Positions 17,753 through 33,861 of a DNA stretch of 64,000 bases are shown in pieces. Position 1 is the first letter of the stretch. Each line of letters begins with the position of its first letter. The notes below the pieces were generated by a model, which searched no databases, was not told the origin of the DNA, and worked only from the letters and a program-made list of their open reading frames with translations. Position numbers and translations under genes: made by a program. The stretch is from the NCBI RefSeq assembly GCF_029338295.1, contig NZ_CP119791.1:2418001-2482000 (forward strand). Direction: 5' to 3'. This stretch comes from Haladaptatus sp. QDMS2 (GTDB lineage Archaea > Halobacteriota > Halobacteria > Halobacteriales > Halococcaceae).

Positions 17753-19186
17753 ATGGCACGTCACAACACGCCACGACGGACCTTCCTCAAAGGAATCGGC
17801 GCGGCTGGACTCGGAACGACACTCGCCTCCGGCAGTGCAGGAGCCTCCCTCCCGCTCGTCGACGACCTGCTCAACCTCACGAGCGACGACGCACAGGAAG
17901 TCCTCGTGGTGTTCGACCAGAGGGAGAACGTCTCACTGCTCTCCCAGCTGGACCTGCTCGACGGGTTCGTCGGGATGAACGTCTTCCCCATCGGGTACAC
18001 ACGACTCACCGGCAGTCAAATCGAAGAAGTCGCCTCCTGGGACAGCGTCCGGCGCATCGAGGCGAACAAGGAACTCGACTATCACAACGCGGACGCCCGC
18101 GAGGTGACCGGCGTCTCCACCGTCCAGTCGGACCTCGGTTACAAGGGAGACAACGCCCACACCGCTGTCATCGACTCCGGAATCTCCGCCCTCCACCCCG
18201 ACCATCAGGAGAACCTCCAGCACAACTACCGCTATCTCAACCCGCTCGGGTCCTCGGGCACGACGTTCTGGGTGGACGTCGGTTCCATCGACACCGACGA
18301 CAATGGCCACGGCACGCACACGAGTGGCTCCATCGCTGGCGACGGGTCGAACACCGAGGCCAACCGCGGGATGGCTCCGAGCGCGGACCTGACCGTCTAC
18401 TCGGCGGGCCTGACGCTACTCGTCATCCACGCCGTCTCGGCGATGGACCATCTCGTTTCCGAAAAACTCGCCGGGAACACCGACGTCCAGGTCGTCTCCA
18501 ACTCATACGGGAGCGCGAGCGGGAACGACTACGACCCCGACGCCGCGCTCAACGTCGCGACGTGGGAAGCCTTCGAGGCGGGCATCCTCCCCGTCTTCTC
18601 CGCGGGCAACAGCGGCCCGGCGAACAACACCCTCAACGACTACGCGAAAGCCCCCCACGTGCTCAGCGTGGCTGCGACGAACGACCAGAAAGCAGTCACC
18701 GACTTCTCCTCGCGCGGGCGGGCGTCCTCGTACGCGGGCGAGACGAACTACGACCGGCAGACGGCACTCGACAACCTCCGCGCCCATCACGACGGCGAGT
18801 CGGTGAGCGGACCGGTCGGCCTCTACCGCAACGGCGTCGGCGCACCCGGCAACGCTGTCGTGAGCACGCTCTCACCGCTCGACCCGCTCAACGCGACGGG
18901 TGGCGGCAACGACCTGTACTACGGCCCGCTCAGCGGGACGAGCATGTCCTGTCCCGTCACCGCCGGAATTGCCACGCTCGTCGTGGACGCCTACTACGAC
19001 GCGACGGGGTCCTACCCCGACCCGCTCGACGTGCTGAACACCATCGAAGCCGAGAGCAACGAAGTCCGTGCGGACTACACCCCCGCGAACATCGGTGCCG
19101 GGTTCGTCGACGGTGACGCCGCCGTCACCCGGGCCGCGAACGGAAACCTCGCCGACTTCAGCGAAGTCGACATCGTCTCGGAATAA
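17753..19186 (+). CDS. Secreted subtilase (halolysin-like S8 peptidase), Tat substrate
   Basis: 477 residues from the ATG. The N-terminus TPRRTFLKGIGAAGLG is a twin-arginine signal; a pro-region (about 45-115, I9-like inhibitor) follows. The catalytic triad is Asp141 (VIDSGIS), His186 (NGHGTHTSG) and Ser397 (GTSMSCP), with the oxyanion-hole Asn in SAGNSGP. There is no C-terminal accessory domain. It is closely related to the next subtilase (both have EATG/EVTG and VQ after a DYHN segment), which suggests tandem duplication. Likely an extracellular scavenging protease active at high salt. Confidence 0.93.
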   Translation: MARHNTPRRTFLKGIGAAGLGTTLASGSAGASLPLVDDLLNLTSDDAQEVLVVFDQRENVSLLSQLDLLDGFVGMNVFPIGYTRLTGSQIEEVASWDSVRRIEANKELDYHNADAREVTGVSTVQSDLGYKGDNAHTAVIDSGISALHPDHQENLQHNYRYLNPLGSSGTTFWVDVGSIDTDDNGHGTHTSGSIAGDGSNTEANRGMAPSADLTVYSAGLTLLVIHAVSAMDHLVSEKLAGNTDVQVVSNSYGSASGNDYDPDAALNVATWEAFEAGILPVFSAGNSGPANNTLNDYAKAPHVLSVAATNDQKAVTDFSSRGRASSYAGETNYDRQTALDNLRAHHDGESVSGPVGLYRNGVGAPGNAVVSTLSPLDPLNATGGGNDLYYGPLSGTSMSCPVTAGIATLVVDAYYDATGSYPDPLDVLNTIEAESNEVRADYTPANIGAGFVDGDAAVTRAANGNLADFSEVDIVSE

Positions 19187-19345: not shown

Positions 19346-19446
19346 GCTAGAGATACACACTCAAAGAAGAAAGCGTTGTGTTGGGTCAGATTGACGAACT
19401 GTTTGCCGAACCAAGCAGACAGTTGGATGGTTTTGTCAGAACACTG

Positions 19447-19473: not shown

Positions 19474-21693
19474 ATGCGCTTCAGTAGACGCAGTGTACTC
19501 AAAGCGACGGGCGCGGCGGGCGCGGCGACACTGCTTCCATATACGGGAAGCGGCGTCGCACAGACACCGACTATCGACGGGCAGCTCGAGACGGACTCGG
19601 CCGACCTCCAGGAGGTGCTGGTCGTCTTCGATTCGAACGACAACGTCGATTTACTCTCGCAGTTCGACCTGGATGCAGGGTACTTCAAATTCGACGTCCT
19701 CCCGATTGGCTACGCGAAACTGACCGGCGACCAGATAGCGACGGTCGCCGAGATTCCAGCCGTTCGCTACGTTCAGGCCAACCGTGAACTCGACTATCAC
19801 AACGAGGACTCCCGCGAGGCGACGGGCGCGGACATCGTCCAGAACAACCTGTTCTACACCGGCGAGACAGCCCACTCGGTCGTCATCGACTCCGGTATCG
19901 ACGGCGACCACCCCGACCACGAGACGAACCTCCAGCACAACTGGCGGTACGTAGACCCCCTCGACGAAGGCACGATGTGGGTGGACGCCGGCCCCGCGGA
20001 CACCGACGACAACGGTCACGGCACCCACACCTCGGGGTCGGTGGCCGGCGACGGCACCGCGAGCGACGGGAAGTACAAGGGGATGGCTCCGGACGCCGAG
20101 TTGACCGTCTACTCTTCGGGTGCAACCTTGCTCATCCTCCAGGCCGTCGGCGCGTACGACCACCTGCTCTCGCGGGTCGAACAGGGCAAAACCGAGGTGC
20201 AAATCGTCTCCAACTCCTACGGTACCTCCAGTCCGGACGACTTCGTGCCGAGCGACGCGCTCAACGTCGCGACGTGGGAAGCCTTCCAGCGGGACATCCT
20301 GTCCGTCTTCTCCGCGGGCAACGCCGGGCCCGGCGAGAACACGCTCAACAACTACACCAAGGCACCGCACGTCCTCGGCGTCGCGGCGACGATGGACGAC
20401 AAGAGCGTCACCGACTTCTCCTCGCGCGGCCGGTTCGCCGACTACGACGGCGGCGGCGAGGGCGCACAGTACGACCGCGAACTCGCCCTCTCGAATCTGA
20501 CCGACTACTTCGACGCGAACCTCGCAGACCAGCCAGTGCTCACCGAGGAATCCTACTCCGGAACCGTCGGTCCCGGCTCCAGCGATGCCGGTGTGGGCGA
20601 CTCAGTGTACCAGGAGTGGACCGCCCCCGAACAGGCGGGCTACGTCGAAGCCGACGTGTCGTGGACGCCACCTGGACAGGACTTGGACATCTACCTCCAT
20701 CAGGGGGCGAAAGACGGCCCCGTCGTGGCCAGCGGCGCGACGCTCGACAATCCAGAGCACGTCGCAGGTGCGGTCAACGGTGGCCAGACGTACTTCTTCG
20801 AAATCGTCCCGTACGCGAACGTCAGCGCGTCCTGGACCATCGACCTCGTCTCACGCGAGGCCCCGCCGAAGGGCCAACAGCCCGAAGGGCCGTTCGGCAT
20901 CTATCGCAACGGCGTCGGCGCGAACGGCAACCTCGTGATGAGCACGCTGTCGCCGGACGACCCACTCCAGGCATACGCCGGACTGAGCGGTCCAGAAGAA
21001 CAGGACAGTGAAATCTGGTACGGACGCATCTCCGGGACGAGCATGTCCTGTCCCGTCACGGCGGGCGTCTGCACGCTCGTCGTGGACGCCTACTACCAGA
21101 ACCACGGCGAATACCCCGACCCGCTCGACGTGCTCCTCATCATGGAGGCGAGCGCGAAGGACGTGCGCGGCGACTACAACCCGGCGAACATGGGTGCCGG
21201 ATTCGTCGATGCGGTGGCCGCCGTCAAACTCGCAGAAGAGAACAAACCGCATCCGGCGAAGTTCAAGGACGTGGACCTGACGAGTCTCGATTCGACCGCC
21301 ACGGACACCGTGTTCGAGGCCACGGGGTCCCGGGCCGACGACGGGTCGGTGTTCACCGCGGGCCAGACCAATCGCGTGGACATCACCGTGGACAGTTCCA
21401 CCGGCTCAGCGTTCGTCCGTGACGCGATTCCGTTCGACTGGACGCTCGTCGGCGGTGACGACGCCACCGTCTACACCGAAGACGGCACGCGCTACGTCGA
21501 GTTCACGAACCCGGTCGGCACCGTCGGCGAAGACGACGACCCGGTCACCCGGACGTACTTCCTCGAAGCGCCAGACTCGACGGGCACCTACGAGTTCGGC
21601 CCCGCAGAAGCAATCTCGACGTTCGACGAGTCGAAATCCGTCACTCTCACCGGGACGGACAGCAACACCGTCGGCGGCGTCGACACTAGCTAA
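19474..21693 (+). CDS. Secreted subtilase with internal PPC-like domain and C-terminal module, Tat substrate
   Basis: 739 residues. Twin-arginine signal FSRRSVLKATGAAGAA at the N-terminus, then a propeptide. Triad: Asp139 (VIDSGID), His182 (NGHGTHTSG), Ser523 (GTSMSCP). Between the oxyanion Asn region (SAGNAGP) and Ser523 lies an inserted beta-rich domain (about 345-460) with VEADVSWTPPGQDLDIYLH, resembling pre-peptidase C-terminal (PPC) domains. The final ~135 residues form a beta-rich module (starting near DDGSVFTAGQTNRVDI) that is also present at the end of the third subtilase. Expected outside the cell. Confidence 0.93.
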   Translation: MRFSRRSVLKATGAAGAATLLPYTGSGVAQTPTIDGQLETDSADLQEVLVVFDSNDNVDLLSQFDLDAGYFKFDVLPIGYAKLTGDQIATVAEIPAVRYVQANRELDYHNEDSREATGADIVQNNLFYTGETAHSVVIDSGIDGDHPDHETNLQHNWRYVDPLDEGTMWVDAGPADTDDNGHGTHTSGSVAGDGTASDGKYKGMAPDAELTVYSSGATLLILQAVGAYDHLLSRVEQGKTEVQIVSNSYGTSSPDDFVPSDALNVATWEAFQRDILSVFSAGNAGPGENTLNNYTKAPHVLGVAATMDDKSVTDFSSRGRFADYDGGGEGAQYDRELALSNLTDYFDANLADQPVLTEESYSGTVGPGSSDAGVGDSVYQEWTAPEQAGYVEADVSWTPPGQDLDIYLHQGAKDGPVVASGATLDNPEHVAGAVNGGQTYFFEIVPYANVSASWTIDLVSREAPPKGQQPEGPFGIYRNGVGANGNLVMSTLSPDDPLQAYAGLSGPEEQDSEIWYGRISGTSMSCPVTAGVCTLVVDAYYQNHGEYPDPLDVLLIMEASAKDVRGDYNPANMGAGFVDAVAAVKLAEENKPHPAKFKDVDLTSLDSTATDTVFEATGSRADDGSVFTAGQTNRVDITVDSSTGSAFVRDAIPFDWTLVGGDDATVYTEDGTRYVEFTNPVGTVGEDDDPVTRTYFLEAPDSTGTYEFGPAEAISTFDESKSVTLTGTDSNTVGGVDTS

Positions 21694-21860: not shown

Positions 21861-21875
21861 CTGAATAATCGTGAT
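21861..21875 (+). promoter_or_regulatory. Shared 15-base motif at the start of the short regulator
   Basis: CTGAATAATCGTGAT; the GTG within it is the first possible start codon of the regulator. 14 of 15 bases recur at 25391-25405, upstream of the paralogous membrane regulator. Either a common control site or a remnant of duplication. Confidence 0.45.
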
Positions 21876-22431
21876 GATGATGCGTCTTTCCTCCACATGT
21901 GTCAGCCGTACAGACTCGAACGACCTCCTCGACCACGACGGGCGTGCGACCGTCTTCTCCGTCATCCGCGAGTCACCCGGTATCTGCATGTCCGCCGTCG
22001 CGGTTCGCGCCGACATTCCGCTTTCGACGACCCGCCACCACATCCGCGTCCTCGAACGCGGAAACCTGGTCGCGGAAACCAAGATTCGTGGCAAACGCCG
22101 GGTGTACGCCTCGAACGCGACCAACATCGAACTGGCGGCGGCGCTCGCAGACGAGGCCACCGCGGCTGTCCTCGACGCACTCTCACGACTCGGGCCGGTC
22201 TCTGTCTCGGCCCTCGCAGACGACCTGGCACGCGACCCGAGCACGGTCACCCATCACCTCCAGCGCCTCGCCGCCGCTGGCCTCGTTGAGCGCGAGCGAC
22301 AGGGCCGAGTCGTCATCAACGCCCTCGCCGGAGAGGCAAAAGATGCACTTGCCCCGGCGGTGCGTGAGGAATCGATGCCACAACCCCGCCTCATGGCCGA
22401 CGGGTCGGGGTTCGGCGAAGACGACTGCTGA
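21871..22431 (+). CDS. Double winged-helix transcriptional regulator (soluble paralog)
   Basis: 186 residues. Two winged-helix DNA-binding domains in series: the first around DHDGRATVFSVIRESPG...DIPLSTTRHHIRVLERGNLV (recognition helix STTRHHIRVLE), the second around SRLGPVSVSALADD...DPSTVTHHLQRLAAAGLV (recognition helix STVTHHLQRL). The same pair forms the cytoplasmic end of the larger protein at 25476, including the closing MADGSG. It lies between subtilases two and three and is convergent with the third. Regulation of these proteases is inferred from position only. The start may be GTG 21871 or one of three ATGs directly after. Confidence 0.82.
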   Translation: MMMMRLSSTCVSRTDSNDLLDHDGRATVFSVIRESPGICMSAVAVRADIPLSTTRHHIRVLERGNLVAETKIRGKRRVYASNATNIELAAALADEATAAVLDALSRLGPVSVSALADDLARDPSTVTHHLQRLAAAGLVERERQGRVVINALAGEAKDALAPAVREESMPQPRLMADGSGFGEDDC

Positions 22432-22458: not shown

Positions 22459-25320
22459 CTACGTGCTCTGTCCGAGCACCGTGTTGTCGTCGCTCGTGCC
22501 AGCCACCGCGACCCAACCGTCGCCAGCGTAGGCGTCGCGGTTGACTGGGAGGACTTCGACATCGCCGAAGGTGTAGACGTTACTCTCTTCGAGCGAGGCA
22601 GGTGCCTCGGCGAAGTAGCTCGCAGCGAGTGACTCGACGCCGTCGCCCGACGTGCCCGTGAGGTAGACGTACTGGACGCCGTCGCCCTGTTCGACGGACA
22701 CGACGTCGCCGTATTCGGTGTCCACCGTCCACGCGGCGGGGACCACGTCACGGACGTACATCGGCCCGTCTGCGTCGCTCAGTTCGATGTCCACCTGATT
22801 CGTCTGCCCGCCGGTGAACACCGAGCCGTCGTCGCTGCGCGTTCCCGTGACCGAGAACGGAAGTTCCGTCCGCGTCGTGTCGAGGTCGAAGTGGGCCTGC
22901 ACGTCGTAGCCGTTGACCGCGCCGGGGACGTTCACGAGTTTCGCGACGACGTAGTAGACGCCGGATTCGAGTGTGAAGGAGACAGCGGCGTCGCCCGTGA
23001 GCCCCTGTGCCTTCGTCACGACGTTCGGCTCGCCGTTCGCCGCCGGGTTCGCGGCGTCGTAGACGAACAGGTCGAAGTGCGGGTTCTCCTCGGCCATGCC
23101 CTTGTTCCCGCCCGCGTAGTGGCTGAACGAGAGGTCAACGGTGTAGACGCCGGGTTCCGTGAGATAGCCAGCGACCGCCCGGGAGTCCGCGGGGACGTTC
23201 AGGCCGAGGACTTCCGCGCCCTTGTCCGTGAGTGGGGTCGTCACGGCATCCACCGCGGCGTCCGGGTTCACCCGGCCGAAGCCCTCGTACGGGTCGCGGC
23301 CGCCGAACTCGTAGGTCGGCACGTGCGCCCGGTGGTACGGCGCGGCGGTAAAGGCCGTCTCCGTGGCCGTGGCCAGAAGCACCTGTTTGAGGCGCATCAC
23401 GTCGTCGAACTCGGTCTGTGCTGGCTCGGGGAGGCGGATTGCGGTGGGTGCCTCTGTGCTCTCCATCGCCTCCGCGACGAGACCCGTCGTGCCCGTGACG
23501 TACGGCGCGGCCATCGACGTGCCCGCCTTGCCCGTGTAGTCGCGCACGTCTGCGTCGTCGTCCTCGATGTCGGAACTGAGCGCCTCTGCTGCGTTCGCGA
23601 GGTCGGTGAGCGACCCGCCGGGTGCAGTGACGTCGGGTTTCATGTAGACGCTGTCGTCGTCTTCGTCGACGCCGCCGACGCCGCCCGAGGAGTAGGCGAC
23701 CAGTCCGTCGCGCGGGCCGGTCGCAGCCACGGAGACGGCCTCGTCTGCGATGCCGGGTGCACCGTTGCCGTTGGCTGGCGTCGCCGCGTTACCTGCCGCG
23801 GCGAGCGTGAGGATGCCGCCCTCTGCAATCTGTTTGATGCTCGCCGGAATATCGTCGAGGAAGCCACCAGCCGCGCCAAGCGGGAGGCCGCCGATGTAGC
23901 CCCACGACATATTGACCGCGCGCATGTTGAACGTACTCGCGAAGGATTCTGCGTGGGTGCCGAGATCTACCGTCGGGCCGGAGAGTCCCTGAAGGCCGAC
24001 GAGACTCGCGTTCGGCGCGAGGCCGGCGTGCAACGAGAGGTCGCCTGTTTCGAGGCGGTCTGCGACCGTCTCGTCCGGGGCGAGGAACGCGCCGACGCGA
24101 ACCGAATCCACCGTGCCTGTCGAGGCCGCCTCGCCGCCCGCGGGCCGGACGTAGCACGTGTAAGTTCCGGACTGGGTGACCGGCGCTTCGGCCACGTTGT
24201 TGTCCACGAGGCTCGTGTCGCTGCCGACCTCGGAGCTGTCGAGTTCCTCGCCGTTTGGTCCCTCGATGATGAGTTCGATGGCCTCGCCGTAGGCGCTGAT
24301 GAAGACGCCCGTGCCCGCCTCCGCTGGGACGGAGTATTCGAGGAAATCACCGGCGGTGAGGACGGCGTTCGGTTCCTCTTTGACGACGGTGGTCGCGTCT
24401 ACGGCGCTCGCCCGCCCGGATCCGCCCATGATGGACGAACAGTGTGACCCGTGGCCGTCGGGGTCGCGGGGTTTGTCGAGACTCCCGTAGCGCGTGCCAG
24501 CATCGTACCAGCCGACGACTTTCGGCATCGTCGAGGTGACGTCGTCTGCGTCTACGTCCGCGAAGGCGACGCTCGACGACGCCGGATACGTCGTCATTTC
24601 GCCCGTCGTGTAGACGTACCCGCCTGCGATGGTGTAGTCCGCGATGACGTTGATGTAGGATTCGACGACGAACCGATAGACTGCCTCGGGTTCGACGATT
24701 TCCAGAATCTCCTCCGGTTGTCCGGCGTTCGTAGAGGAGGCGACGCGCTGCCAACTGCCGTCTGCCTGTTGCTTGTCGAGGTAGAGTTCGAGGTCCTCGC
24801 CGGCGCTCGTGACGTCTGCGTCCTGGTTCTCCGGTTCCCAGGTCATCGTGGCGTCGATTTCGAGTTCGTTCGCTTCGTCGGGAAGCGCAGGGGTCGTGAA
24901 CTCGTGGGTGGCCGTCGTCGGCGTGACGAACGTGCCCGTCGCGAGCGTGCCCGTGTACTCGTAGGTTTCGCCGTCGAGGGTGTGCTCCGTCAGGTCGTTT
25001 TCGGCCGGTCGCGTGAGTTTGAGTTCGCCGTCGCGGACGAGCGCGAGGACGCCGTTCCACGGCCCGATGTCCGGGTGGCGAGCGTCGATGCCCGAGTCGG
25101 TCAGCCCGATAGCCCGGTCGGCTCGGCCGCGATAGCCGCGCGCCCAGACCTTGCTGGCCTCTAAGACGCGGAAGTTCGCATATTCCGGATGAATGTTCGC
25201 GTGTGCTCGTACGTTGCCGGTTGCCTGTGTTCCGAGGAGGCCGGCTCCCGCCGCGAGGCCCGTCGCCTGGAGGAGTGCCCGCCGCGAAAGCTCGATGGTG
25301 GGTGTGTTTTGTTCTGTCAT
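22459..25320 (-). CDS. Large secreted subtilase with two domain insertions, Tat substrate
   Basis: 953 residues from the ATG at 25320. Signal: LSRRALLQATGLAAGAG. Triad: Asp75 (LTDSGID), His290 (DGHGSHCSS) and Ser602 (GTSMAAP). The Asp-His interval of 215 residues is far above the usual ~40, because a beta-rich domain (about 105-240, with TMTWEPENQDADV) is inserted. A second beta-rich insert (about 316-410) follows His. Both resemble PPC domains. After the catalytic domain come another PPC-like region (about 710-800) and a C-terminal module shared with the second subtilase (DDGSVFTGGQTNQVDI onward). Divergent from the membrane regulator gene, with 155 bases between. Confidence 0.9.
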   Translation of the reverse strand: MTEQNTPTIELSRRALLQATGLAAGAGLLGTQATGNVRAHANIHPEYANFRVLEASKVWARGYRGRADRAIGLTDSGIDARHPDIGPWNGVLALVRDGELKLTRPAENDLTEHTLDGETYEYTGTLATGTFVTPTTATHEFTTPALPDEANELEIDATMTWEPENQDADVTSAGEDLELYLDKQQADGSWQRVASSTNAGQPEEILEIVEPEAVYRFVVESYINVIADYTIAGGYVYTTGEMTTYPASSSVAFADVDADDVTSTMPKVVGWYDAGTRYGSLDKPRDPDGHGSHCSSIMGGSGRASAVDATTVVKEEPNAVLTAGDFLEYSVPAEAGTGVFISAYGEAIELIIEGPNGEELDSSEVGSDTSLVDNNVAEAPVTQSGTYTCYVRPAGGEAASTGTVDSVRVGAFLAPDETVADRLETGDLSLHAGLAPNASLVGLQGLSGPTVDLGTHAESFASTFNMRAVNMSWGYIGGLPLGAAGGFLDDIPASIKQIAEGGILTLAAAGNAATPANGNGAPGIADEAVSVAATGPRDGLVAYSSGGVGGVDEDDDSVYMKPDVTAPGGSLTDLANAAEALSSDIEDDDADVRDYTGKAGTSMAAPYVTGTTGLVAEAMESTEAPTAIRLPEPAQTEFDDVMRLKQVLLATATETAFTAAPYHRAHVPTYEFGGRDPYEGFGRVNPDAAVDAVTTPLTDKGAEVLGLNVPADSRAVAGYLTEPGVYTVDLSFSHYAGGNKGMAEENPHFDLFVYDAANPAANGEPNVVTKAQGLTGDAAVSFTLESGVYYVVAKLVNVPGAVNGYDVQAHFDLDTTRTELPFSVTGTRSDDGSVFTGGQTNQVDIELSDADGPMYVRDVVPAAWTVDTEYGDVVSVEQGDGVQYVYLTGTSGDGVESLAASYFAEAPASLEESNVYTFGDVEVLPVNRDAYAGDGWVAVAGTSDDNTVLGQST

Positions 25321-25390
25321 ACGCGTTGCGCATGTCACTCGTAACCACCTGTCTAAAAAGAAATTCTGACAACTCTGTCCAAACGTGGGT

Positions 25391-25475: not shown

Positions 25476-27290
25476 ATGAAAATCATTGACAACAGTGGGG
25501 GGTTACGGGTGCTGGGAATAATGCTCGTAGTCGCATCACTTCTCGCCGTCCCGGCCACCGTCGCGGCGACGCCTGACGACCCGCTTTCTGACGACGGAAC
25601 GACGACGAACACGACGACCACCGACACGCTCTCCGACACGCAGACGACCACCGAGACGACGACAACGACCGAAGCACCGACCGCGACTGACACGCTCACA
25701 GACAGCACAGAATCCACGAGCACAGCGGTCAAGGACGAGACGAGTGAGACGCTCGACGGAACGGACGAATCCGTCGAAGAAACGAGTGAAACCGTCGAGG
25801 ACACCGCCACCGCAGTCGAGGAGACGGCAACGGACACGACCGACGACGCCCAGACGACCGTGACCGACACCGTCGATTCGACGCTCAATGACGCGGCATC
25901 GACCGCCGAGGACACGGATTCGACCGTCGAAGATGGGGCAAAGACCGTGACCGAGACGGTAGACGACACGCTCTCGGACACCGACGAGACCGTCGAAACG
26001 GTCACCGAGAAGATGGACGACGCGACGGAGACCGTCGCCCCCTCGCCAGATGGCACGACCGAGGTCTCACTCGGCGACACCGGAGACGCCGAACTCGACG
26101 ACGGCACGGAGACGCCAGCATTGGATGCCGGCAATGAAACACCCCAACTCGATTCTGGGACGGAAACCTCACAGCTCGACGGGGACACAGAGAATCTCGA
26201 GACGGTAAGCGAACCCGTCACGGACACGGTAGCGACGGCCGGTGAGAGCGTCCCCGGCGCGGACGACGCGACGCTGAGCGAGGACGCGCCGGCCACCACG
26301 ACGTTTGTCGGTGACGACGAGCAGTCAGGTGACGGTGCGGAAACTCCCGCCCCGGCGAGCGACGACGCGCGTGCGACGGCCGACGAGACTGACGAGCGCA
26401 AGGAACCCGACAGAGAGACCCCCGCACCCGCCGGCGGGGCCGCCTTCGACGGTGACTCTGGAGGCGCACAGATCGAAGGCGGCGAAAAAGACGGGCGGAC
26501 GCCAACGGGCGATTCGACCGGGACCGACGGCGCACTTGCCGCGCTCTCCGCGGTCAACATCCCCGAACCAGTAGACGACGAGACGGGTATCGCCCTCGGT
26601 ATCGGCGCAATCGTCACCGCCGGCGTCTTCCGCTATGGCTCCGCCGTCGACCTCTCAGGATTCGGACAGGCGGCAGGGCAGGCGACCCACCCGCTAGTGA
26701 GGACGCAAGTCAACAGGGTCACCGACGCGATAGAACGCCTGTTCCGCATTGTCGCGCCGTTCCGGTACAGTCGGTTCGATGACTCCGACCCACTCGAACA
26801 CGACGGCCGCGAAGCCGTCTACGAGGTCATCAACGAGTCGCCCGGGGCGTACCTCTCGGAGGTGGCGACCCGCGCCGACATTCCGCTCTCGACGACCCGC
26901 CACCACATCCGCGTCCTCGAACGCGAGAAGTTGGTCTCGGGGGCGAAAGTCCGCGGCAAGCGCCGCTTCTACGTCTCGCAGGCCGCGGACATCGAACTCG
27001 CCGCGGCGCTTGCAGACGAGGCCACCGCGGCCGTCCTCGACGCGCTCTCGCGACTCGGCCCCTCGTCTGTCTCCGACCTGGCCGGGGACTTAGAACGCGA
27101 CCCGAGCACGGTCACCCACCACCTCCAGCGCCTCGAGGAGAACGACATCGTGAAGCGCGAGCGAGAGGGCCGTGCGGTCATCAACCGACTCTCGCCTGCG
27201 GCGAAGGCGGCGCTGTCGCCCGACCTCGAACCGACGCCAGGCGAACCACAGCGCGTCATGGCCGACGGGTCGGGGCTAGAAGAACGCTGA
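25476..27290 (+). CDS. Membrane-spanning double winged-helix regulator with long Thr/Asp/Glu-rich outer stalk
   Basis: 604 residues from the ATG at 25476. Residues 1-31 are a Sec-like signal (hydrophobic core ending VPATVAA). Residues ~32-365 are almost wholly Thr, Asp, Glu, Val, Ser and Ala, with repeating TVEDT/TVTDT-type units, suggesting an extended, possibly O-glycosylated stalk. One membrane span follows (about 370-392, GIALGIGAIVTAGVFRYG). After it, two winged-helix domains (recognition helices STTRHHIRVLE and STVTHHLQRLE) would lie in the cytoplasm. This outside-to-inside topology suits one-component signalling from the cell surface to DNA. The C-terminal half is a close paralog of the protein at 21871. 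Divergent from the third subtilase. Confidence 0.85.
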   Translation: MKIIDNSGGLRVLGIMLVVASLLAVPATVAATPDDPLSDDGTTTNTTTTDTLSDTQTTTETTTTTEAPTATDTLTDSTESTSTAVKDETSETLDGTDESVEETSETVEDTATAVEETATDTTDDAQTTVTDTVDSTLNDAASTAEDTDSTVEDGAKTVTETVDDTLSDTDETVETVTEKMDDATETVAPSPDGTTEVSLGDTGDAELDDGTETPALDAGNETPQLDSGTETSQLDGDTENLETVSEPVTDTVATAGESVPGADDATLSEDAPATTTFVGDDEQSGDGAETPAPASDDARATADETDERKEPDRETPAPAGGAAFDGDSGGAQIEGGEKDGRTPTGDSTGTDGALAALSAVNIPEPVDDETGIALGIGAIVTAGVFRYGSAVDLSGFGQAAGQATHPLVRTQVNRVTDAIERLFRIVAPFRYSRFDDSDPLEHDGREAVYEVINESPGAYLSEVATRADIPLSTTRHHIRVLEREKLVSGAKVRGKRRFYVSQAADIELAAALADEATAAVLDALSRLGPSSVSDLAGDLERDPSTVTHHLQRLEENDIVKREREGRAVINRLSPAAKAALSPDLEPTPGEPQRVMADGSGLEER

Positions 27291-29973: not shown

Positions 29974-30462
29974 TCACGCCCGCGAACCGGTGTCGGCGCG
30001 TCGATACCGGCCGAGGCGACTGTATCCCTGTATCGACCCGTCACCCGCGATGAGCACCTCGTACTGGCCGAGGATGTCCTGGGTGTCGGGAACCGAATGG
30101 CGTTCGACGACTTCGACGACCGCTCGCCAGCCCTCGTCGCCGTCCTGCATCACTTCGGTGACGCCGTCGAGGTCGTGGCCGATGAGGTCGGCTGATGTCG
30201 TTTCGACCTTCGAGCGAACGTCGAGGATGGACGAGACTGAGTCGTCTTCCTGCTGGCCACCGTCCGCCTGTCCCGTCTCAGCTTGCTGGGTATCTTCCGT
30301 CGATTCCTGCTGGTTGGCGGCGTCCTGGGACTCGTCCGCGTCGTCCACGGTCGGGTCGCTCTCGTCGTGTTGGTAGCAGAACTTCCCGTCTGCGGCCGTC
30401 CGGCCACAGCGCTCGCCACCCTCGGTGAGCGCGTGACACTGGGCTGCCTCGGAATCGCTCAT
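29974..30462 (-). CDS. gvpO: Gas vesicle protein GvpO with N-terminal zinc-finger-like segment
   Basis: 162 residues. The C-terminal ~85 match GvpO: SADLIGHDLDGVTEV, GWRAVVEVVERHSVPDTQD, ILGQYEV and GYSRLGRYRR. GvpO is required for gas vesicle formation in Halobacterium. The N-terminus (about 8-32) has CHALTEGGERCG...FCYQH, a CCCH pattern that could bind zinc and is absent from the classical Halobacterium GvpO; a Gln/Asp-rich linker joins the two. It lies 4 bases downstream of gvpA on the same strand. Confidence 0.9.
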   Translation of the reverse strand: MSDSEAAQCHALTEGGERCGRTAADGKFCYQHDESDPTVDDADESQDAANQQESTEDTQQAETGQADGGQQEDDSVSSILDVRSKVETTSADLIGHDLDGVTEVMQDGDEGWRAVVEVVERHSVPDTQDILGQYEVLIAGDGSIQGYSRLGRYRRADTGSRA

Positions 30463-30466
30463 GACT

Positions 30467-30721
30467 CTAGCTCGTCGCCTTGATTTCGAACTCCTGGATG
30501 TCCTCTAAGTCACCAGATTGTGTTACCTGCTCTATCCTGCTCATCTCCGCCGCGTACTTGAGGAACGTGTCCACGGAGGCGGCGACGACGCGCGCCTCGA
30601 CCGTGAGCAGTTCGATGCCCACGACCGACAGGCGGGCGAACACGTCAATGACGACGCCCTTGTCGAGGATGCGGTCGAGCACGTCTGCGAGACTTGAGGT
30701 GTCTGGTTGGGAACCTGCCAT
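30467..30721 (-). CDS. gvpA: Gas vesicle structural protein GvpA
   Basis: 84 residues from the ATG at 30721, reading on through the conserved core: [18 protein letters not shown], then [19 protein letters not shown] and FLKYAAEM. GvpA forms the ribs of the gas vesicle wall. The acidic/polar tail is short. A TATA box about 50 bases upstream predicts a ~20-base leader, as known for the Halobacterium gvpA. Transcription would run into gvpO. No gvpC or gvpN follows, unlike the classical gvpACNO unit. Confidence 0.96.
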
Positions 30722-30765
30722 AGCCTCTACCCATCTCTCGTGAGGCCCTTTATTCGTTGAGGCCA

Positions 30766-30777
30766 ACATTTAAATTT
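30766..30777 (-). promoter_or_regulatory. gvpA promoter in the divergent gvpA-gvpF intergenic region
   Basis: On the minus strand AATTTAAATG forms a TATA box about 47-54 bases before the gvpA ATG. The whole 151-base spacer (30722-30872) separates the two gvp transcription units; I see no obvious GvpE activator site and no gvpD/gvpE genes in the window. Confidence 0.55.
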
Positions 30778-30872
30778 TCCAGAACGTTTGGCCGTCACTA
30801 TTAGAAGGTGGTACCGCAAACGGTTACGGGAACGATGAACCGCCAGACCGAACACAGCCGGGCAGTGGGGCG

Positions 30873-31517
30873 ATGACGAGCAACTACTACGTCTACGGCG
30901 TGCTGGAGAAAACGACGCTCGACCTCGAAGTGGCGGGCGTGGAAGGCGCGAGTCACGTCTCCACCGTCGATTACCCGCCGTTCTCCGCCGTCGTCTCGGA
31001 TATCGACGTGGAGGACCCAGAGGAAACCGACGAGAACGCCCGCGCTCACGACGACGTGTTGCAGGCCGTGATGGAGCACGGTGGCGGACACACCGTCGTC
31101 CCGATGCAGTTCGGGATGGTGTTCGACTCCGCACGCGGCGTGAAGAACATCCTGCGCGGGGGCCGCAGAGCCTTCACCAAGGCACTCCGCGACACCGAGG
31201 GGATGGTCGAACTCGGCGTCAAACTCGTCGCAGAACAGGACACCGACGTGGACACGGAGACGATTCGCGAGGACGCGGCGGAGCGTCTCGCCACCGTAGC
31301 CGACGAAGTCGCAGAAGGCGACCTGTTCAGTGACCTCATCGTGTTGAACCGGTCGTATCTCGTCGCCCGCGAGAAGCGCGAGGCATTCGACGAGGCGGTT
31401 GACGAACTCGAAGCCGACTACCCGGACCTCCGGGTCCAGTACACCGGCCCGTGGGCCCCGTACAACTTCGTAGACATCGAAATCAGCGGCTCTCGGAGCA
31501 ATGTTCCTCATCGATGA
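30873..31517 (+). CDS. gvpF: Gas vesicle protein GvpF
   Basis: 214 residues. GvpF/L family: starts MTSNYYVYGVLEKTTLDLEV, has VDYPPFSAVVSDID, VVPMQFGMVF and ends VQYTGPWAPYNFVDIEI, matching haloarchaeal GvpF. An essential accessory protein thought to act in early assembly with GvpA. First gene of the rightward gvp unit; overlaps gvpG by 17 bases. Confidence 0.94.
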   Translation: MTSNYYVYGVLEKTTLDLEVAGVEGASHVSTVDYPPFSAVVSDIDVEDPEETDENARAHDDVLQAVMEHGGGHTVVPMQFGMVFDSARGVKNILRGGRRAFTKALRDTEGMVELGVKLVAEQDTDVDTETIREDAAERLATVADEVAEGDLFSDLIVLNRSYLVAREKREAFDEAVDELEADYPDLRVQYTGPWAPYNFVDIEISGSRSNVPHR

Positions 31518-31752
31518 CCTGCTCTTTCGACCGCTGCTCGCCATCCTCGACGCTATCCACTCGGTCGCGCTCACCGAGCTGTACGACGTCGAGGAGATAC
31601 GCGACCGTATCAAGGAAAACCGGTTGCTGTACGAACTCGGCGACCTGTCGAAAGCCGAGTACGAGGAACGAAAGGCAGCGCTGGAAGCCGAACTGGAGGC
31701 GGCCCGCCGCGCCCACGAACGGGTCGGGAGCAGAATCGAGGTGAAACGCTAA
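31501..31752 (+). CDS. gvpG: Gas vesicle protein GvpG
   Basis: 83 residues: MFLIDDLLFRPLLAILDAIH, YDVEEIRDRIKENRLLYELG and a basic coiled-coil-prone tail ending MEVKR-like IEVKR, as in Halobacterium GvpG. Essential minor gas vesicle protein. Overlaps gvpF and is followed after 2 bases by the next gene. Confidence 0.93.
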   Translation: MFLIDDLLFRPLLAILDAIHSVALTELYDVEEIRDRIKENRLLYELGDLSKAEYEERKAALEAELEAARRAHERVGSRIEVKR

Positions 31753-31754
31753 CC

Positions 31755-32495
31755 ATGGATTCAAACACCGAAGACAAACTGGACAAGGCAAAAGACGTCG
31801 CGGCCGACGTTGCAGAGACCATCTCCGAGGAAGTCGAAGACCGTGCCCCGGAGAAAGTAAACCGTGTGAAGACGGCGAAAGACGAGGCCGAAGCGATGGC
31901 CGAGACCATCAACGTGAGCGAACTCGTGCAGGCCATCAATCTGCGCGAAGTTCCCGACGCCATCGACGAGGACGACCTGAAAGAGGCCATCACGGAGCGC
32001 GACGTGGCCGAGGCACTCGACGTGGCTGACGTGCCCGACGCCGCAGACGGTGAGGACGCATGGGAGGCGATGGACGTCCGCGAGACGTGGCGACACGGCC
32101 GAAAACTGGTCGCGGCGCTCAAAGGCGACGAGGAACTCGACGTGCCGACGCCAGACGTCGAAGACGAGGTAGTGGACTCGCCGGACGATTTAGACGAGTT
32201 CAGCCAACTCGCCATCCAGAAGAAGGCGAGCGACGCCGTAGACGAGTTCCGCGAGGAACTGCTGAAGACGCGCGCTCGGCTGAAGGAACTCCACGACAAG
32301 AATCGCGAGAAGACGACGCCCGATTCGAGAAAACCGAAGTCGAGAAGTCCAACCGCCGTCTCGACCGTCCCGAACAGCAAGCCGAAATCGACGCCGGGAA
32401 CGCGCTACTCGACCGTGCCGTCAGAGACGAAGTACTCGACCGCACCGAATCGAAAGCGCATCTACGGCAATCGGTTCGAGGACGACGATGGATAG
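31755..32495 (+). CDS. Gas vesicle cluster protein at the gvpH/gvpI position; GvpI-like tail plus seven nonapeptide repeats
   Basis: 246 residues. An acidic helical N-terminus (1-51) leads to seven tandem nine-residue repeats (52-114): INVSELVQA, INLREVPDA, IDEDDLKEA, ITERDVAEA, LDVADVPDA, ADGEDAWEA, MDVRETWRH. A helical middle follows, then a basic tail (about 190-246) with AVSTVP, YSTVP and YSTAP units and RIYGNRFED, which resembles GvpI. No Hsp20-like GvpH domain is visible. In Halobacterium, GvpH and GvpI are non-essential modulators of vesicle strength and length. It is possible that this is a fusion or a lineage-specific replacement of gvpH-gvpI. Confidence 0.75.
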   Translation: MDSNTEDKLDKAKDVAADVAETISEEVEDRAPEKVNRVKTAKDEAEAMAETINVSELVQAINLREVPDAIDEDDLKEAITERDVAEALDVADVPDAADGEDAWEAMDVRETWRHGRKLVAALKGDEELDVPTPDVEDEVVDSPDDLDEFSQLAIQKKASDAVDEFREELLKTRARLKELHDKNREKTTPDSRKPKSRSPTAVSTVPNSKPKSTPGTRYSTVPSETKYSTAPNRKRIYGNRFEDDDG

Positions 32496-32790
32496 TAGCC
32501 GCCCGACCCGCCAGCAGGGCGACCTCGCAGACATGGTCGAGATGCTCTTGGACAAGGGGGTCGTCATCAACGCCGACATCGCGGTGTCGGTCGGCGACAC
32601 CGAACTGCTCGACATCCGGATTCGCGCCGCGCTCGCGTCGTTCGAGACGGCCGCCCAGTACGGCCTCGAATTCCCGAGTGGCACCGACATGGAGCGCGTC
32701 GAACAGGCGTCCGGCCGGCCCGAACTCGAAGAAGAGCCAATCGACGCAACATCGATGACCGTCGAGTCGGAGCACGATGACGACGATTGA
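32488..32790 (+). CDS. gvpJ: Gas vesicle protein GvpJ
   Basis: 100 residues, a GvpA-paralog: QGDLADMVEMLLDKGVVINA, IAVSVGDTELLDIRIRAALA, SFETAAQYGLEFPSGTDM, then an acidic tail. A minor, essential vesicle component thought to shape the conical ends. Its start overlaps the preceding gene by 8 bases and its end overlaps gvpK by 14. Confidence 0.94.
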   Translation: MDSSRPTRQQGDLADMVEMLLDKGVVINADIAVSVGDTELLDIRIRAALASFETAAQYGLEFPSGTDMERVEQASGRPELEEEPIDATSMTVESEHDDDD

Positions 32791-33085
32791 CGTAGACGGA
32801 GAAGACGGCGGCCTCGTCACACTCGTCGCCACGATTGCGGACGTGTTGCTCGAAGTGATGGAGCGCGAAGCCATCCGTCGAATGGAGTCAGAGACGCTCA
32901 CCGACGAGGAGATAGAACGCCTCGGCCAGCGACTCGCGACGCTCGAAGACGAACTGGAACAGTTCAAACGCGACCAGGGAATCGAAGACGACGTCGACCG
33001 CCTCAGAGGTGACCTGAACGGCCTCATCGAGTCGGCGCTCGAACTCCCCGACGACGCGGCTGGACTGGAACGGAGGGCGCAATGA
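32777..33085 (+). CDS. gvpK: Gas vesicle protein GvpK
   Basis: 102 residues: TIDVDGEDGGLVTLVATIAD, EVMEREAIRRMESETLTDEE, IERLGQRLATLEDELE and LRGDLNGLIESAL are all characteristic of GvpK. Essential accessory protein in haloarchaeal vesicle formation. Overlaps gvpJ and gvpL (4-base ATGA), so translation of the whole unit is probably coupled. Confidence 0.93.
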   Translation: MTTIDVDGEDGGLVTLVATIADVLLEVMEREAIRRMESETLTDEEIERLGQRLATLEDELEQFKRDQGIEDDVDRLRGDLNGLIESALELPDDAAGLERRAQ

Positions 33086-33861
33086 CCGCCGACCGACGGT
33101 ACGTCTTCTGTGCAGTCTCAGTCGCAGACGGACCGGACACCTACCGCACCGTCGGGCTTGACGGAACCGACGCCTACCTCGTCCGAGAGGGGGCGGTCGG
33201 CGCACTCGTCCAGCCACAGGACGCCGCCTTCGAGCGCGACGACGACGAAGCCGTCCAGCGCCTGCTCGTAGACCACCTCGCCATCGTCGACGAGGTGGGC
33301 GAGACGTTTGGCACGCCGCTTCCGCTGCGCTTTAACACGGTGTTCGAAGGCGGTGACGACGGCGTCCGCGAGTGGCTTCGAGACGACAGCGAGCAAATTG
33401 CGACCCAGCTCGACCAACTTGCCGGCCACTGGGAGTACCGCATCGAGGTCGTCTGGACTGACGACCGCCCGGCGACCGACGAGAACGACGACCGACTTGC
33501 GGAACTCGACGCAAAACTCGAAGATGCGGCTCCCGGCAAACGGTTCCTCCTCGAAAAGCAACGCGACCAGCGGGTCGCCGAATTGGCCCGAGAGCGAAAA
33601 GCCGCAGTACAGGACGACCTCGAATCCCGGGTTGCGCCACACGCGAAGGCGGTCGCGGCGCTCGACGACCAGTCGCTCGAAATCGGCGGGCAGGAAACAG
33701 AAGGTGAGGTCGTCGCCCGCGTGTCGGTCCTCGCGACGGACGAGGGGGCGAGCGCCATCGGAGACCTGCTCGACGAGGTGGCCGCAGAAGAGGGTGTCGA
33801 GGTCCGGTACACCGGCCCGTGGCCCCCCTACACGCACGTCTCGGAGGGCGTGCCGGAATGA
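33082..33861 (+). CDS. gvpL: Gas vesicle protein GvpL
   Basis: 259 residues, GvpF/L family: RRYVFCAVSVADGPD at the N-terminus, TPLPLRFNTVFEGG, a central coiled coil (LEDAAPGKRFLLEKQRDQR), and VRYTGPWPPYTHVSEG at the end, the same closing motif as GvpF. GvpL interacts with most other accessory Gvps in Halobacterium and is considered a scaffold. Overlaps gvpM by 4 bases. Confidence 0.94.
   Translation: MTADRRYVFCAVSVADGPDTYRTVGLDGTDAYLVREGAVGALVQPQDAAFERDDDEAVQRLLVDHLAIVDEVGETFGTPLPLRFNTVFEGGDDGVREWLRDDSEQIATQLDQLAGHWEYRIEVVWTDDRPATDENDDRLAELDAKLEDAAPGKRFLLEKQRDQRVAELARERKAAVQDDLESRVAPHAKAVAALDDQSLEIGGQETEGEVVARVSVLATDEGASAIGDLLDEVAAEEGVEVRYTGPWPPYTHVSEGVPE

Follow-up and report, generated by a model that had tools for sequence, protein, structure and literature searches.

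Genes and features at the locus

The window is a stretch of 64,000 nucleotides of Haladaptatus DNA. It carries the gene for a predicted membrane-spanning regulator with a long stalk, here called REG, and genes for exported subtilases. The genes and the parts of REG are located as follows.

17753 to 19186, plus strand: 477-aa Tat-exported subtilase (Peptidase_S8)
19474 to 21693, plus strand: 739-aa Tat-exported subtilase (Peptidase_S8), a predicted REG target
21871 to 22431, plus strand: soluble paralog of REG with both winged helices, lacking the signal peptide, the stalk and the span; start position uncertain
22459 to 25320, minus strand: large Tat-exported subtilase (S8-L), 953 aa, Peptidase_S8 with a twin arginine in the N-terminus, a predicted REG target
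25476 to 27290, plus strand: REG gene, ATG at 25476 and stop at 27290, 604 aa
25476 to 25568, plus strand: predicted signal peptide of REG, residues 1-31 (hydropathy 2.6 over 15 residues; A-x-A sites)
25569 to 26600, plus strand: Thr/Asp/Glu-rich segment of REG (the stalk), predicted to be extracellular, residues ~32-375 (composition, periodicity)
26607 to 26663, plus strand: weak predicted membrane span of REG, residues ~378-396, basic on its C-terminal side (hydropathy 1.41; position conserved among relatives)
26802 to 26996, plus strand: first winged helix of REG, residues 443-507 (Pfam PF24266, HTH_HVO_0163_N, 40.1 bits, cut-off 31; AlphaFold2)
27009 to 27203, plus strand: second winged helix of REG, residues 512-576, SmtB/ArsR-like fold (Pfam PF12840, HTH_20; Foldseek)
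29974 to 33861, strand not specified: gas-vesicle genes (GvpO, GvpA-like, GvpF/L, GvpJ-like, GvpK; Pfam), judged to be a bystander

The REG and S8-L genes are divergent and 155 bp apart. S8-L has both features of S8 subtilases that were tested, an export signal and an Asp-His-Ser triad (Asp75, His290 and Ser602, invariant among 11 relatives). The preliminary description of this DNA had placed a divergent large subtilase, two further subtilases and a soluble paralog beside REG, and this arrangement is confirmed by the Peptidase_S8 matches and by 67% identity between the paralog and REG over 172 residues. Among three genus members examined, the paralog is present in the window species only, and it may serve as a bypass of the membrane input. 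The gas-vesicle cluster, which lies 2-6 kb downstream of REG, was absent from that description.

Architecture of REG and its relatives

The N-terminus of REG contains hydrophobic residues at about 10-30, together with A-x-A sites, and leads into a stalk composed of 21% T, 14% D, 11% A and 10% E. Both winged helices are modelled by AlphaFold2 with pLDDT mostly above 90. The second matches HTH_20 over residues 512-561 (58.4 bits, cut-off 27) and superimposes on CzrA and SmtB folds with an rmsd of 1.4-2.5 Å over 70-80 columns (Foldseek). Within this architecture, the evidence is weakest for the membrane span. Its best 19-residue Kyte-Doolittle mean is 1.41, many relatives reach 1.5-2.0 at the matching place, and AlphaFold2 gives only a short, low-confidence helix there (residues 376-386). 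The predicted topology places the winged helices in the cytoplasm and the stalk outside. A signal peptide, a T/D/E-rich stalk, one span, albeit weak, and two winged helices are thus what the preliminary description had reported for this gene, and that part of it stands.

The stalk had also been described as a series of repeats, which holds only in part for the window copy, where TRF gives weak, short arrays and hydrophobic periods of 7 and 22 residues occur in the first 170 residues. In pooled stalks of the family, hydrophobic periodicity is found at 4, 7, 11, 18 and 22 residues and the spectrum peaks at ~3.65 residues, a pattern that corresponds to a hendecad signature. A helical stalk was sought with AlphaFold2 on full-length REG. 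Because the stalk is modelled as unstructured (pLDDT 32-45), the hendecad pattern is regarded as a signal in the sequence only. N-x-S/T sequons number 505 in 69 pooled stalks, where 191 are expected, which hints at glycosylation outside the cell; the window stalk shows no excess (2 versus 1.5 expected).

REG relatives are found in 103 of 392 Halobacteriales genomes searched with a profile built from genus members, and 37 of the 95 genera have at least one. Among the hosts are Natronomonas, Haloglomus, Halorarius, Haladaptatus, Halocatena, Natrinema, Natrialba, Natronorubrum, Halosimplex and Halogranum. Of the 83 loci examined, most encode a signal peptide, a low-complexity arm, a span and tandem winged helices, and the distance from span to winged helices is similar across most of them. 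The arm has a median length of 231 residues and reaches 1270 residues in one REG (L078:5875-10476), where it lies between signal peptide and span. A stalkless minority clade (L080, L092, L103, L117, L118, L120, L121, L123 and L126) has neither an arm nor a clear second hydrophobic segment. In its members the winged helices closely follow an N-terminus that resembles a signal peptide, and simple topology rules would oddly place their DNA-binding domains outside.

Linkage of REG to subtilase genes

Subtilases lie within 10 kb of REG in about 15 of the 83 loci. The 392 genomes contain 48 large-subtilase genes, 14 of which are within about 3 kb of a REG gene. In ten of the 14 (10 genomes, 4-5 families) the two genes are immediately divergent. 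The preliminary description had made its proposal depend on co-occurrence with subtilases in other genomes, and these counts establish such co-occurrence. Two genomes, G001 and G002, have REG and lack the large subtilase. In one locus (L127:7012-9108), a gene for a PAS-GAF-BAT-HTH_10 regulator sits between subtilase and REG; with the HTH_10 regulators found behind operators elsewhere (see below), this arrangement hints at a cascade.

A candidate operator

A 20-bp candidate operator, TTTGGAYGGNTTTGYCASAA, immediately precedes the TATA-like box of both subtilases in the window that are predicted targets. The two sites are as follows.

19419 to 19441, plus strand: candidate operator ACAGTTGGATGGTTTTGTCAGAA upstream of the 739-aa subtilase (31.2 bits)
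25364 to 25386, minus strand: candidate operator ACGTTTGGACAGAGTTGTCAGAA upstream of the large subtilase, within the divergent intergenic region (33.3 bits)

These are the sole matches in the 64 kb, the rest of which scores at most 4 bits, and they were found with a matrix trained on 49 unlinked sites of other loci, none from the window. Twenty Markov copies of the window gave maxima with a median of about 6 bits, the highest being 16.1 bits. The matrix scan found no operator upstream of the 477-aa subtilase. The site of the 739-aa subtilase is conserved in the genus relatives L015 and L016.

The operator is an imperfect palindrome in which 10 of 20 positions are self-complementary. It was first noticed upstream of subtilases in several REG loci. 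There, ACGTTTGGAYGGTTTTGYCAGAA recurs ahead of the subtilase genes of different loci and is followed after 5-10 bp by a T-rich TATA-like box. The end of the operator is commonly 35-50 nt before the start codon, and hence upstream of the TATA box. In archaeal promoters, a site upstream of the TATA box favours activation. The position of the operator therefore suggests that it mediates activation.

A matrix made from eight REG-locus sites picks out high-scoring sites in over 20 additional REG loci, some of which precede non-subtilase genes or REG itself. The operator precedes the REG gene in L050, L052, L054 and L055, and in many genomes it lies within a divergent intergenic region shared with REG. 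Two further loci, outside the set surveyed, are similar. In Halosimplex aquaticum (L232) an operator precedes a gene, adjoining REG, for a surface protein of a kind also found behind unlinked sites (see below), and in Halorarius halobius (L216) one precedes a subtilase gene a little upstream of REG. The operator was looked for at the REG-linked subtilase of G094, where none was found.

The operator also tracks REG across genomes. Searching the 392 genomes for the pattern TTTGGAYRSDNBTGNSAVAA gives 69 matches, spread over 42 genomes; the reversed control gives one. Exact matches are present in 39 of 103 genomes with REG versus 3 of 289 without it (Fisher 2.6e-22), and the matches in these three are off-consensus. 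Many of the 64 REG-containing genomes without an exact match may have variant sites. Genomes that have only stalkless relatives have no matches.

Promoters of the large subtilase show the same contrast. An operator of at least 16.8 bits is present in 27 of 28 promoters from genomes with REG, many of them unlinked to the REG gene, versus 0 of 13 from genomes without it, where the maximum is 1.9 bits (Fisher 8e-10); some of the 28 overlap the sites on which the matrix was trained, and promoters with variant sites outside the training set include those of G236, G296, G320, G334a, G308, G379, G388, G106 and G111. On the subtilase tree, an average of 5.7 of 6 independent contrasts have the same direction and none goes against it (p about 0.03). 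The correlation between operator and REG is strong. The preliminary description of a one-component, surface-to-DNA regulator tied to subtilases gains strong support from it, in that even unlinked subtilase copies share the promoter element when the genome has REG.

Predicted regulon

The genes behind the 49 unlinked sites encode 39 exported proteins, six HTH_10 regulators and four products of unclear type. Among the exported proteins are eight large subtilases, eight Tat-exported proteins of M14 carboxypeptidase type, seven Tat-exported proteins of LVIVD-repeat type, one purple-acid-phosphatase-like protein and three Sec-exported surface proteins, where family labels were passed from representatives to similar sequences. 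A further 12 are PGF-CTERM-like surface proteins, all in family f7; the NCBIfam PGF_CTERM match of such a target is below threshold (19.4 versus 24.5 bits). A C-terminal segment ending like GTxxTxVVGxST is common to the window subtilases and to many operator-linked, otherwise different, Tat proteins.

Besides the two subtilases, an HTH_10 regulator gene in the genome of the window has an operator (38.8 bits), as it does in G001 (35.4 bits). Weaker sites precede the genes for an M14-type exported protein (23.3 bits), an LVIVD-type Tat protein (24.5 bits) and another Tat protein (17.7 bits).

Some sites are less easily placed. An operator-like site of 29.9 bits (G000:C1:1911703, in L189) is not followed by a clear gene on the same strand, and a site in G002 (at 328276) is 138 nt before an aldolase-like gene. 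In three loci of one genus (L136, L142 and L155), exported proteins of 850-1320 aa are encoded behind the operator and are possible partner proteins. At least two of them begin with repeat-rich segments that resemble the REG stalk.

Possible functions

The best explanation, to which we assign a probability of roughly 75%, is that REG is a membrane-anchored one-component regulator of a regulon of exported peptidases and surface proteins, acting through the 20-bp candidate operator. We infer that REG is the protein that binds this element. The two cytoplasmic winged helices would recognise the imperfectly palindromic sequence just upstream of the BRE/TATA region of the target genes. In the window, these would be the divergent large subtilase and the 739-aa subtilase. 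Targets elsewhere in the genome would be the HTH_10 regulator and, at weaker sites, the M14-type carboxypeptidase and two Tat-exported proteins. The long, probably glycosylated outer arm might couple a condition at or beyond the S-layer to the regulon, and the soluble paralog, which has no arm, could use these operators independently of that input.

The operator might instead belong to another regulator that co-occurs with the REG family, with the stalked protein doing something else. Many haloarchaeal regulators co-occur, but this reading is improbable, given that the presence of the operator follows REG across independent contrasts, that the two share divergent intergenic regions in many genomes and that the REG gene itself has an operator in four loci. 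It is also conceivable that no specific regulator exists and that chance synteny is combined with a generic promoter element of exported-protein genes, in organisms so rich in subtilases that the window genome has 14 matches. However, the same subtilase promoters lack the element in 13 genomes without REG, the element is nearly absent from the 289 such genomes and the third subtilase of the window also lacks it, which leaves this combination with hardly any probability. Another candidate function is the control of gas vesicles, since no other neighbour of REG is as frequent as the gvp cluster, which lies within 10 kb in about 30 of the 83 loci, including the window. Yet no operator is present near gvp genes in 28 loci (maximum 5.9 bits), genomes with this linkage carry the operator elsewhere, before a surface protein gene, and only two clades show the linkage, in one of them as part of a long shared gene order with mutS and a CHY zinc-finger-like gene. 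Gas-vesicle control by REG, which appears very improbable on these grounds, was rejected after the operator proved absent from the gvp region of the window and from the 28 gvp-linked loci. Because the operator is absent there, the neighbouring gas-vesicle genes look like bystanders. The gvp cluster adjoins REG in the window, L015, L016 and about 27 further loci, with the CHY zinc-finger-like gene alongside, and the gvp-linked loci of family f7 have a divergent mutS.

The signal is a separate matter. Perhaps the subtilases cut the stalk and a second, intramembrane cut frees the winged helices, so that REG would report extracellular protease activity in a feedback loop on its own targets. Exported peptidases (S8 and M14) make up a large part of the predicted target set, the soluble paralog resembles a constitutively released form, and such a relay fits the logic of feedback. 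However, the gvp-linked clade (family f7) has the stalk to the same extent, and there the operator precedes the gene for a PGF-CTERM-like surface protein that is not a protease, and REG persists in G001 and G002 even though neither has the large subtilase. The relay is therefore considered unlikely. A somewhat broader possibility, which we put forward tentatively and expect to be wrong in more cases than not, is that a hendecad-patterned, glycosylated arm passing through the S-layer senses an outside state and adjusts the conserved exported-peptidase regulon via one class of operator; what it senses may be crowding, the activity of proteases, or a partner protein whose repeats resemble its own. 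Because at least two exported targets start with repeat-rich segments like the stalk, arm-to-arm contact with such targets (L136, L142 and L155) could be the signal.

Comparison with known systems

Transmembrane transcription regulators (TTRs), which are one-component systems of the ToxR/CadC type, are widespread in bacteria and archaea (PMC10269533). Like TTRs (PMC10269533), REG would combine a DNA-binding domain, here two winged helices that exceed Pfam cut-offs, with a membrane span, weakly predicted for the window protein, in one polypeptide and is proposed to act from the membrane. In contrast to TTRs, REG has a predicted N-terminal signal peptide and two C-terminal winged helices, a long low-complexity stalk takes the place of a folded sensor domain, and an operator predicted across genera is accompanied by a predicted regulon of exported peptidases.

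In Sulfolobus, ArnR and ArnR1 are membrane-bound regulators of the archaellum, and the helix-turn-helix of ArnR is N-terminal (cited in PMC13286277). ArnR, ArnR1 and, as predicted, REG are alike as archaeal, membrane-bound, one-component regulators of surface structures, whereas the helix-turn-helix domains of REG are C-terminal (residues 443-576), so the order of ArnR is reversed. The likeness to ArnR is one of general kind.

The second winged helix of REG also passes NCBIfam NF033788 for ArsR/SmtB repressors (69.9 bits, cut-off 55). In REG, unlike these repressors, this domain is joined to another winged helix and to a predicted membrane anchor, and REG has no metal-sensing site of the cysteine type, because the window protein is without cysteine.

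The halolysin SptA of Natrinema is an exported subtilase controlled by growth phase through palindromic cis elements, which are GAAATN7ATTTC, TTCTTN10AAGAA and GAAN4TTC (PMC6085418). These elements differ from the operator associated with REG. The same paper states that halolysin regulators, and the control of exoprotease production in haloarchaea, were undetermined (PMC6085418). A literature search, whose reach excluded many subscription papers, found no description of a haloarchaeal stalked regulator or of a halolysin regulator.

The general kind of REG is known, since membrane regulators are widespread (PMC10269533) and ArnR is an archaeal example (PMC13286277); none of the papers found describes the arm, the domain order, or the operator and regulon. 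For haloarchaeal exoproteases, the REG family provides a named candidate regulator, together with a precisely defined candidate operator and a set of genes that it is predicted to control; Natrinema, Haladaptatus and Natronomonas are among the lineages concerned. Archaeal membrane-anchored regulators gain a predicted operator that is conserved across families, and both the way in which such regulators find DNA and sensing by a structureless outer arm become directly testable.
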